Assembly: GCA_026399835.1 (NCBI GenBank)
Contig: JAPLQE010000071.1
Coordinates: 1-41,236 of the forward strand
Source of the DNA: Burkholderiales bacterium
GTDB taxonomy: Bacteria; Pseudomonadota; Gammaproteobacteria; Burkholderiales; Burkholderiaceae_E
Direction of reading: 5' to 3'
Length of the DNA stretch: 41,236 nt
In this document: positions 1 through 41,236 of the stretch, in pieces
Layout of the letters: the number at the start of each line of letters is the position of its first letter
How positions within the stretch are numbered: the stretch's first letter is position 1
Notes under the pieces: generated by a model
The model's input: the letters and a program-made list of their open reading frames with translations, nothing else
Databases searched by the model: none
What the model was told of the DNA's origin: nothing
Position numbers and translations under genes: made by a program

Positions 1-3
1 CTG

Positions 4-141
4 GCTGGAGCGCTCCCGCCGTCTGGTCATGCATCACGACCGCTCCAGCCGAAACGCCGCTGCATGGGCTTGGCTCGCTCAGTCGCATATGCTTCTGCAC
101 AGACTCGCTTCGCCCGCTTGATTTTGTCTAGACCCTGTCAG
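4..141 (-). repeat. 138-bp repeat, left copy (inverted relative to right copy)
   Basis: Read on the minus strand, this stretch is identical over 138 bases to 41099-41236 read on the plus strand. It begins with CTGACAGGGTCTAGAC, and the TGA in it is the stop codon of sppA. The element therefore lies directly downstream of sppA and in the same sense. Two possible hairpins are visible. One has arms GGC..AGTC and GACT..GCC around a small TGC-AGAA-GCA hairpin. The other has a perfect 10-bp stem, GGCTGGAGCG with CGCTCCAGCC, close to the window end. No ORF in it resembles a transposase. The outer boundary is unknown because the window ends here. I do not recognise the family. Confidence 0.9.
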
Positions 142-1205
142 CGCACCCGGGGCGCCTCGCCCGAGACGCCGAACTGGCGCGCCAGAACCTGGCCCGCGGA
201 CATCCCGACCCGCTTGGCGAGCCGCTCCGCGAGGTTGGCACGGCGGGTGAAGTCGACCAGTTCCTCGGCCTTGATGACGTCGCGCGCCACCGAGCGCAGC
301 GAGCCGATCTCGTCGGCGAGGCCGAGCTCGACGCTGGAGGCACCGGTCCAGATCAGGCCGGAGAACATGTCGGGCGTCTCCTTGAGGCGGTCGCCACGGC
401 CCTTGCGGACGGTCTCGATGAACTGCGCATGGATCGTGCCGAGCATCTTGCGCGCGTGCTCGCGCTGGACCTCCGACAATGGCGAGAACGGGTCGAGGAA
501 CCCCTTGTTCTCGCCGGCCGTCAGCAGCCGGCGCTCGACGCCGACCTTGCCCATCGCCTCGGTGAAGCCGAATCCATCCATCAGCACGCCGATCGAGCCG
601 ACCAGACTCGCCTTGTCGACGTAGATCCGGTCGGCGGCGGCTGCGACGTAGTAGCCGCCGGAGGCGCAGATCTCCTCGATGACCGCGTAGAGCGGGGTGT
701 TCGGATGCTGGGCGCGCAGGCGGCGCATCTCGTCGCTGATGAGCCCAGCCTGGACCGGGCTGCCGCCCGGGCTGTTGATGCGCATGACGACGCCCGCGGT
801 GCCGGTATCCTTGAAGGCCAGGCGCAGCGCATCGATGACCGCGTCGGCATCGACCTCGCCGCCCGCGTCGAGCACGCCCTGGATCTCGACCACCGCCGTG
901 TGGCGCCCGGTCGTGACGGCCTCGGGCGAATGGATCCAGCCGAAGGTGCTGGCCAGCACGAGGAGCACGACGCCGAGGCCGGCGAAGCGGAAGAAGATCC
1001 GCCAGCGGCGCGCGCGACGCTGCTCCTCGACCGTGGCCATGACCAGGCGCTCCAGCACCCCCCGCTCCCAGCCGGGGGGCTGGACGGCACGAGGCGACTG
1101 GCCGACCGGGTCGGGCTGGGCCGGCCCGGGCTGCCCGGGCTGCCCGGGCTGCCCGGGTTGCCAGGAGGGCTCGACCCTCGAACGCGTCGGATCCTGATCG
1201 CTCAT
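138..1205 (-). CDS. sppA: Signal peptide peptidase SppA (S49 family membrane serine peptidase)
   Basis: This 355-residue protein belongs to the S49 peptidases, which degrade residual signal peptides and membrane-bound peptides on the periplasmic face of the inner membrane. It has a Pro/Gly/Gln-rich cytoplasmic N-terminus (about 1-45), one membrane segment (about 70-89) and one peptidase domain. Motif RINSPGG is at 142-148, the nucleophile is Ser182 in ICASGGYY, and the general base Lys234 lies in AGENKGF. Its length matches the short single-domain, self-compartmentalising form. The ATG overlaps the upstream Rieske stop as ATGA, which supports this start over longer in-frame extensions. It is the last gene of the rluC-HAD-Rieske-sppA run, and its TGA stop lies inside the 138-bp terminal repeat. 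Confidence 0.93.
   Translation of the reverse strand: MSDQDPTRSRVEPSWQPGQPGQPGQPGPAQPDPVGQSPRAVQPPGWERGVLERLVMATVEEQRRARRWRIFFRFAGLGVVLLVLASTFGWIHSPEAVTTGRHTAVVEIQGVLDAGGEVDADAVIDALRLAFKDTGTAGVVMRINSPGGSPVQAGLISDEMRRLRAQHPNTPLYAVIEEICASGGYYVAAAADRIYVDKASLVGSIGVLMDGFGFTEAMGKVGVERRLLTAGENKGFLDPFSPLSEVQREHARKMLGTIHAQFIETVRKGRGDRLKETPDMFSGLIWTGASSVELGLADEIGSLRSVARDVIKAEELVDFTRRANLAERLAKRVGMSAGQVLARQFGVSGEAPRVR
1131..1157. repeat. 9-bp tandem repeat in the sppA 5' end
   Basis: Three perfect copies of CTGCCCGGG lie head to tail, with degenerate copies on both sides. On the coding strand they encode Pro-Gly-Gln units in the N-terminal tail of SppA. Because the unit is a multiple of three, copy-number change would alter tail length without breaking the frame. 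Confidence 0.85.
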
Positions 1206-1597
1206 CGCTCGCCCTTCACCACCGTGGCCTGCACTTCGATCCCCCCGTCGCGCTCGCGGCACGGTACCGCCTGCAGCGACTTGCCGCGGCACGGGCCGCC
1301 CACGCACACACCGTCCGAGGCATCGTACACGGCGCCGTGCGTGGCGCAGACGATGACCGTGCCGGTGTCGTCGAGGAAGCGCCCCGGCGTCCAGTCGAGT
1401 TCGACCGGCACGTGCGCGCACTGATTGAGCCAGGCGAGCGGGCGCCCCTCGATGCGAAGCACGAAGGCGGGAATCGGCCCGCCGCGGGCGGCGATCTCGA
1501 AGCGGACACCGTCGCCGCGCTCGGACAGCAGTCCGGCGTCGCAGACGCGCGCCCAGCCGTCGGCGAGGTCACCGGAGCCGCCGCAGTCAGCGCTCAT
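1202..1597 (-). CDS. Rieske [2Fe-2S] ferredoxin-like protein
   Basis: This is a small soluble Rieske-fold protein of 131 residues, probably a single-domain electron carrier. The cluster ligands are visible as Cys60-x-His62 and Cys84-x2-His87 (CAH and CATH), followed by the second ligand-loop region GVCVGGPCRG. There is no signal peptide or membrane anchor, so it is not a cytochrome bc1 subunit. The start ATG overlaps the stop of the upstream HAD gene (ATGA), and its own stop overlaps the sppA start (ATGA), so the three genes look translationally coupled. A Rieske gene next to sppA and rluC is a recurring arrangement in Burkholderiales as I recall it. Its redox partner cannot be read from the sequence. 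Confidence 0.88.
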   Translation of the reverse strand: MSADCGGSGDLADGWARVCDAGLLSERGDGVRFEIAARGGPIPAFVLRIEGRPLAWLNQCAHVPVELDWTPGRFLDDTGTVIVCATHGAVYDASDGVCVGGPCRGKSLQAVPCRERDGGIEVQATVVKGER

Positions 1598-40061: not shown

Positions 40062-41102
40062 ATGGCACGACACGCAGCCGAGGCCCGAGTGTCATCCCTA
40101 CCCGCCGCACGCCCCACCCTCCCTGCGCTCGACGCCATCGAATCGGCCGCCGCCATCGTCGCCGCCGCCATGCCGCCGACGCCCCAGTACGCCTGGCCGC
40201 TGCTCGCCCGCCGGCTGGGCACCGAGGTCTGGGTCAAGCACGAGAACCACACCCCGACCGGCGCCTTCAAGGTGCGCGGCGGCCTGGTCTACCTGGACGG
40301 CCTGGCGCGCACCGAGCCCGGCTGCCCGGGCATCGTCTCCGCCACCCGCGGCAACCACGGCCAGTCGCTCGCCTTCGCCGCGCGCCGCGTCGGCATCCCG
40401 GCGACGATCGTCGTGCCCCGGGGCAACAGCGTCGAGAAGAACGCCGCGATGCGGGCGTTCGGCGCCGAGCTGATCGAGCACGGCGAGGACTTCTCCGAGT
40501 CGGCCGAGCACGCGACGCATCTTGCCGCCGCCCGCGGCCTGCACCGCGTCCCCTCCTTCCACCCCGACCTGGTTCGAGGCGTGGCGACCTACTGGCTGGA
40601 GCTCTTCCGGGCGGTGCCCGGGCTCGACCTCGCCTTCGTGCCGATCGGCCTGGGCTCGGGCCTGTGCGGGGCGCTCGCCGCGCGAGCGGCGCTCGGACTG
40701 CGCGATCGGCTGCGGATCGTGGGCGTGGTGTCGGCCCACGCGCGCGCCTACGCGCTGTCGATCGAGGCCGGCCGCACCGTCGATGCCCCCGTGTCGACGC
40801 GGCTCGCCGACGGCATGGCGGTGCGCGTCGCCGATCCGGCGGCGCTCGCGATGATGCTCGGCGAGGTGGACGAGGTCCTCGAGGTCGACGACGCCGAGGT
40901 GGCCCGCGCGATGAAGGCCCTGTACGTCGACACGCACAACGTCGCCGAGGGCGCCGGGGCCGCCTCGCTGGCCGCGGCGATGCAGTGGGCACGCGAGCGC
41001 CCGGGCGGACTGGCGGGCCGGCGGGTGGGCCTGACGCTGTGCGGCGCGAACGTCGATCACGAGGTGTTCGCCGCGGTGCTGCGCGACACGCTGCTCGACT
41101 GA
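40062..41102 (+). CDS. PLP-dependent threonine/hydroxy-amino-acid dehydratase-like enzyme
   Basis: This 346-residue fold-type II PLP enzyme resembles threonine/serine dehydratases. The cofactor lysine is Lys70 in TGAFKVRGG. The substrate loop is SATRGNHGQS, the phosphate-binding glycine loop is PIGLGSGLCG, and the C-terminal site is LCGANVDHE. There is no regulatory ACT domain, so it is the short catabolic type. Likely activity is deamination of threonine, serine or 3-hydroxyaspartate to an oxo-acid. A GTG ten codons in is an alternative start. Its TGA stop lies within the 138-bp repeat, exactly as for sppA at the other end, and the C-terminus looks full length. Confidence 0.88.
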   Translation: MARHAAEARVSSLPAARPTLPALDAIESAAAIVAAAMPPTPQYAWPLLARRLGTEVWVKHENHTPTGAFKVRGGLVYLDGLARTEPGCPGIVSATRGNHGQSLAFAARRVGIPATIVVPRGNSVEKNAAMRAFGAELIEHGEDFSESAEHATHLAAARGLHRVPSFHPDLVRGVATYWLELFRAVPGLDLAFVPIGLGSGLCGALAARAALGLRDRLRIVGVVSAHARAYALSIEAGRTVDAPVSTRLADGMAVRVADPAALAMMLGEVDEVLEVDDAEVARAMKALYVDTHNVAEGAGAASLAAAMQWARERPGGLAGRRVGLTLCGANVDHEVFAAVLRDTLLD

Positions 41103-41236
41103 CAGGGTCTAGACAAAATCAAGCGGGCGAAGCGAGTCTGTGCAGAAGCATATGCGACTGAGCGAGCCAAGCCCATGCAGCGGCGTTTCGGCTGGAGCGG
41201 TCGTGATGCATGACCAGACGGCGGGAGCGCTCCAGC
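41099..41236 (+). repeat. 138-bp repeat, right copy
   Basis: The sequence is identical to the reverse complement of 4-141. It opens with the TGA stop of the threonine dehydratase-like gene and runs to the window end. The base before the shared block differs between the copies (Asp codon GAC here, Arg codon CGC in sppA), which fixes the inner edge at one base before TGA. The outer edge is not visible. Confidence 0.9.

Follow-up and report, generated by a model that had tools for sequence, protein, structure and literature searches.

The window, a stretch of 41,236 nucleotides from a Burkholderiales bacterium, raises the question of why two unrelated genes at its opposite ends, one sppA-like and one threonine-dehydratase-like, are joined to the same DNA exactly at their stop codons. 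A repeat search of the window shows that positions 4-141 and 41099-41236 are reverse complements with arms of 138 nt and 100% complementarity, far beyond chance, as the first-pass annotation had recorded. Its placement of this block, downstream of both genes in the same sense and starting one base ahead of TGA, agrees with the coordinates and strands (41099 is C and 41100-41102 are TGA; the corresponding positions on the minus strand are 141 and 140-138). That annotation proposed a dispersed repeat that either has an affinity for gene 3' ends or carries a terminal TGA that replaced the original ends. The analysis presented here points to an ordinary insertion sequence with a short target. The features discussed below are as follows.

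1..137, minus strand: right end of copy 2 of the IS5-family element, cut off by the contig edge
2..118, plus strand: 3'-terminal 39 codons of the transposase gene (IS5 family) in copy 2, closed by the stop at 119-121
120..137, minus strand: terminal inverted repeat, copy 2
138..140, minus strand: TGA, native sppA stop and target-site trinucleotide; the empty site in genome G008 reads CGC[TGA]G and contig C61 reads ...CACGTTC[TGA]GTGCC
138..1421, minus strand: sppA-like signal peptide peptidase gene (Pfam Peptidase_S49, 3.9e-33); frame as listed, true start probably inside
40062..41102, plus strand: threonine-dehydratase-like PLP enzyme gene (Pfam PALP, 7.3e-62)
41100..41102, plus strand: TGA, a target-site trinucleotide (TNA) at which the threonine-dehydratase-like gene also stops; same LD-TGA end in genome G005, TNA in relatives of the element
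41103..41120, plus strand: terminal inverted repeat of copy 1, CAGGGTCTAGACAAAATC; relatives have GAGGGTGTAGACAAAATC and CAGGGTGTGGACGAAATC
41103..41236, plus strand: right (transposase-3') end of copy 1 of the IS5-family element, cut off by the contig edge; exact match to 4-137 (minus strand) and to the C13 edge, terminal repeat as in named relatives
41122..41235, minus strand: 3'-terminal 38 codons of the transposase gene (IS5 family) in copy 1, closed by the stop at 41119-41121

Contig edges and the repeated block

The window is the entire contig C81 of a draft genome (G000) of 4,954,742 bases in 93 contigs. A search of the whole draft confirmed that the repeat is dispersed and raised the number of copies from two to three: two on C81, one per edge, and the third on C13, at its right edge. 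All three terminate at contig edges in a manner that fits a 141-base assembly overlap, in line with the earlier suggestion that the repeat broke the assembly. The last 141 nt are identical between the right edges of C81 and C13, and the left edge of C81 has 138 nt in common with both, an offset of 3 bases. This left edge sits 3 bases further in because its flank differs: CGAC-TGA is common to the right edges of C81 and C13, whereas the left edge of C81 has C-TGA only. Exactly 141 bases are also common to several other contig-edge pairs in G000; MEGAHIT typically uses a k of 141. Contig edges in a k-mer assembly have exact k-mers in common by the nature of the method, so the perfect identity of the blocks is expected and is no evidence for the recent spread or ongoing conversion suggested earlier. 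Perfect repeats at contig edges arise from assembly overlap.

Searched as DNA, the block gave no match in plasmid and phage sequences, nor did an exact 27-base search against the named genome contigs. Rfam found nothing on the three block-bearing contig edges, and the folded DNA of the block was no more stable than its shuffles (z = 0.47). Two of the 61 genomes searched, G000 included, gave block matches; the same-genus genome G010 carries a 72%-identical IS5 end (L005, 3999-4136), also at a contig edge and with CTCA in front.

The IS5-family element and its probable target site

Read from the contig edge, the block terminates in WLERSRRLVMHHDRSSRNAAAWAWLAQSHMLLHRLASPA followed by a stop. When this 39-residue tail was compared with plasmids by tblastn, 166 records were returned at E values up to 5, the best (51 bits, 59% identity) being annotated as an IS5 family transposase. 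Half of the 20 plasmid matches listed carry an IS5 family annotation, and the other 10 fall in unannotated stretches. IS5-family copies on named plasmids of Massilia, Pseudomonas putida, Halomonas and Cupriavidus, with ISPsy19-annotated ones among the matches listed, share 51-62% identity with the tail over 34-39 residues across those 20 matches. Pfam assigned no family to the two transposase tails alone, the 39-residue one included; two full-length relatives, P0002 and P0004, are recognised by NCBIfam NF033580 (IS5 family) and by the Pfam families DUF4096 and DDE_Tnp_1. The tail matches and the NF033580 relatives together place the protein among the IS5-type DDE transposases, the catalytic domain of the element itself lying outside the assembly. 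As the first-pass annotation had anticipated, the true element is longer than 138 bp, the block being its 3' end with 39 transposase codons and a terminal repeat. In the G000 bin, we found no full-length copy; a PF13586 profile search returned a single match below the cut-off, and a pattern search for the IS5 left end, allowing up to 3 mismatches, returned only the three known right ends. The terminal repeat of the plasmid copies, of the type [G/C]AGGGTGTNGAC, is akin to that of the window, the right one starting with CAGGGTC in the window and, similarly, with CAGGGTG in the Massilia copies; the window element, in contrast to the plasmid copies, is known from its right end only.

These relatives indicate what the element uses as a target. 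Eight of the 20 listed plasmid matches were fetched and checked for their ends. Seven of them show terminal repeats, flanked by a directly repeated 3-bp sequence: TTA four times, and TAA, TCA and TAG once each. A C stands before this repeat and a G after it in every case (C-TNN-G); in the eighth match (L016) no such terminal repeats or 3-bp repeat were seen. We then used a wider sample of 88 loci, made of the best 80 of 134 named-genome loci and the 8 plasmid loci. A script-based scan detected two repeat-like ends in 67 of the 88, and a cut-off of at most four mismatches per end retained 30 clean copies, the remaining loci being truncated or more distant copies in which the repeat does not fit. 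An equal 3-bp repeat flanks 22 of the 30 clean copies and is missing from the other eight; it reads TTA in 10, TAA in 5, TCA in 4, TAG in 2 and TGA in 1. The repeat is a TNA in 20 of the 22, is preceded by C and followed by G in 20, and forms a full C-TNA-G in 18. Read outward, the IS5 left end of the relatives finishes in C, followed by TNA-G. The IS5 right ends in G000 abut TGA in all three cases. An open frame of at least 100 codons ends at the repeat in 7 of the 22 copies, and only three of these frames contain a Pfam domain (a guanylate kinase, an ABC ATPase and a NAD-binding dehydrogenase). Landing at a stop codon thus occurs in the IS5 relatives and is not the rule.

According to PMC12016507, the IS1031 group of the IS5 family favours TNA and yields 3-bp repeats, TGA in its own case. 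The window element may be akin to this group in its putative TNA target and 3-bp duplication; the relative P0002 differs by an extra N-terminal HTH region.

We infer that the IS5 transposase would cut at C-TNA-G and duplicate the TNA. In a gene ending in C-TGA-G, the insertion would land against the stop, and such insertions would survive because the protein is left intact. Very probably, the 138-bp blocks are the right ends of IS5-family copies whose interior has collapsed in the assembly and is missing from the draft, with C-TNA-G as target and with survival of the insertions that fell at native stops. The window element is of a known kind, an ordinary insertion sequence, and the joint at the stop codon is explained by its target site.

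Host stop codons and a second element

Whether the TGA belongs to the genes can be read from homologues without the block. For sppA, we examined 10 of 14 loci (four from other families of the order were left out). The G008 gene, 92-95% identical and without insertion, ends in CGGGTACGC-TGA-GCCCC and provides the empty site CGC[TGA]GCCCC, the comparison that the first-pass annotation had called for. Same-genus homologues have TGA at the same place in seven of eight cases and TAA in one; G041, from another family, ends in TAG. As G008 has the TGA without the insertion and seven of the eight same-genus homologues end there, it is the native stop and belongs to the host gene sppA, not to the element. 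For the threonine-dehydratase-like gene, 7 of 10 loci were examined, three at 34-37% identity being left out. The G005 gene, 84% identical, has the same LD-TGA end but in the context CTGAC, not CTGAG; in four of the six homologues compared, the gene is closed by a TAG a few codons upstream.

At C13, the third copy differs in this respect. There the stop of a Crp-like gene lies 25 bp before the block, and the TGA at the block closes only a 10-codon frame (MSAATCDCAD). CTGA adjoins all three copies, and at C13 it does not close a full-length gene. In G008, a nitronate monooxygenase gene of 425 codons (L072, 2271-3548; Pfam NMO, 1.3e-32) has its start overlapping the stop of the Crp-like gene, and in G000 the frame starting at the Crp-like stop runs for ten codons and then reaches the TGA. 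A search of G000 with the G008 nitronate monooxygenase gene returned nothing beyond short matches; the gene may have been deleted, or its contig may have been too short to enter the bin. The flank of a left end at C53, belonging to the second element described below, matches G008 from the nitronate monooxygenase stop TGA onwards (GTC-TGA-G; 38 bases, 89%). On this match, the G008 site counts as another empty site, its native stop lying in CTGAG, and C53 may be the far flank of C13, with the nitronate monooxygenase gene missing between them.

The far side of the sppA insertion could also be located. The sequence 3' of sppA in G008 leads to the left edge of C61 in G000, which reads ...CACACGTTC-TGAG-TGCCGG, so that TGA stands on both sides of the insertion. 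The sppA end and this downstream flank adjoin in G008, at 94-96% identity over about 465 bases each side. The 135 bases before TGAG at C61 are not an IS5 end; they recur at several other contig edges, and a reading frame, MSTEPLERESAGQT..., starts within them; we named the corresponding element E2. Because the far flank is the left end of E2, an element that likewise uses CTGAG, the TGA pair at sppA does not directly record a single IS5 duplication. On the simplest reading, IS5 and E2 would be neighbours at a single CTGAG, where either could have landed beside the other. E2 starts with G at its right end, so CTGAG (again C-TNA-G) would be recreated at the junction with the gene, and a second element such as IS5 could stack beside it.

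We examined 145 of the 186 contig edges of G000 (83 starts and 62 ends, six of the starts being N) for ends of E2 and IS5. All nine E2 left ends (C61, C53, C26, C34, C37, C38, C44, C4 and C68) abut TGAG and all seven right ends (C10, C21, C41, C52, C57, C70 and C80) abut CTGA. None of these 16 ends has inverted flanks, when half would be expected if either orientation were used; some left and right ends may share one insertion. The two ends of E2 match each other at 13 of 17 bases, a score equalled by none of 200,000 random 17-mer draws from the window. TCG follows CTGAG at five of the nine left ends and at none of the 25 CTGAG sites of the window, a difference noticed after the fact; [TC][CG]G follows seven of the nine left flanks (P = 0.0003 at 0.2), this motif having been chosen after the flanks were seen. 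At five of the seven right ends, E2 adjoins the stop codon of a recognisable gene; these genes encode a BrnA antitoxin, a TPR protein, a class-III aminotransferase, a NUDIX_4 protein and a thioesterase; no recognisable gene stop was found at the other two. In all five genes, the Pfam match reaches within two positions of the profile end, the class-III aminotransferase match being below the Pfam curated cut-off (23.3 vs 30.5 bits).

The E2 N-terminus may resemble IS1182 transposases. As regards this likeness, comparison of E2 with libraries, plasmids and phages gave no match of weight: the 62-residue N-terminus matched no Pfam or NCBIfam family, E2 protein and DNA had no match in plasmids, and two weak phage matches had E values of 0.9 and 7. 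For ISPse1 of the IS1182 family, a table in PMC3281130 gives the figure 4, which we took as the length of the target repeat, whereas E2 fits 3 or 5. Only tentatively do we suggest that E2 is a site-specific insertion sequence which recognises an asymmetric site around CTGAG (often then TCG), inserts in a fixed orientation, lies harmlessly behind genes and allows IS5 to stack beside it; this full reading is possible rather than probable. E2 would slip behind genes without harm because its site often contains a TGA stop in a G+C-rich genome.

Stop codons as landing sites

Native stops are found at five of the seven E2 right ends and at two of the three IS5 ends, which could suggest that the 3' ends of genes, or stop codons, are themselves recognised, and not just a short sequence. 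We therefore counted the available sites in the window, which has 72% G+C and in which approximate gene calls with a home-made codon score gave 22 genes covering 79%. Contig edges left out, there are 25 CTGAG sites on both strands, of which 15 lie in genes, 6 at native stops (one of them being that of a weak 59-residue gene call without Pfam match) and 4 between genes, some of which may be hidden within unpredicted genes. If every CTGAG were equally open (6/25), five or more of seven E2 ends at stops would have P = 0.011; if insertions within genes are lost, so that only sites outside predicted genes count (6/10), P = 0.42. Pooling E2 and IS5 (seven or more of ten) gives 0.003 and 0.38, respectively, and as this pool includes the two ends that prompted the search, the E2-only figure is the fairer one. 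In addition, one IS5 copy and two E2 right ends lie away from any recognisable gene stop, and the IS5 relatives use TTA most (10 of 22), with only 3 of 22 at a Pfam-recognised gene stop. Recognition of gene ends is thus very unlikely, and the proposed affinity for them is not needed: we prefer the account in which a short target (C-TNA-G or CTGAG), together with selection against gene-breaking insertions, produces the coincidence with stops. A short insertion target combined with selection can mimic stop-codon targeting. Our literature search on insertion at stop codons found no paper, and neither "stop codon" nor "TNA" occurs in the text of PMC3281130; we do not claim such insertion as unreported.

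The rival readings overlap in part, and the weights we give them are not meant to sum to one. A TGA carried by the element, giving new stops in place of the original gene ends, would agree with the presence of CTGA within the common block in all three copies; it is contradicted at sppA, where G008 has the same TGA and the same C-terminus, and it fits poorly with the LD-TGA end in G005, which leaves this idea extremely improbable. We regard as equally improbable that the 41 kb are the cargo of one composite transposon. Two inverted copies, one per window edge, have the expected arrangement, but several of the nine window frames scanned are housekeeping genes (RNase E/G, HSP90, a gyrase-B-type subunit), and the sppA end and the C61 flank are contiguous in G008. 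Finally, the block could be an alternative right end of E2, a single element then existing in two forms with no separate IS5: its partner flank at sppA is an E2 left end, and nine left ends stand against seven right ends plus three IS5 ends with the same CTGA flank among the 145 edges. This is unlikely, if somewhat less so than recognition of gene ends, since the terminal repeat of the block matches the IS5 relatives, whereas its similarity to the E2 left repeat is at chance level (11% of random window 20-mers match the first 20 bases of the block equally well or better) and E2 has its own pair of matching ends. With the IS5 account retained, what stays of interest is the fixed orientation of E2, and its pattern of oriented insertion at CTGAG, mostly at native stops, would if confirmed neatly illustrate how a mobile element can land without doing harm.

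Some minor observations were made along the way. The IS5-family transposase at L012 (472-1623) has about 100 extra N-terminal residues with HTH matches, weakly IS630-like, before the usual IS5 domains, and the one at L014 (511-1614) is extended in a similar way, its extra part giving just a weak IS630 match. In G000, the starts of contigs C40, C72, C73 and C79 have about 139-140 bases in common, probably reflecting another repeated element. Further pairs of starts, C2/C63, C4/C13, C31/C43 and C42/C55, share exactly 141 bases, and C2 and C63 resemble two flagellin 3' ends.
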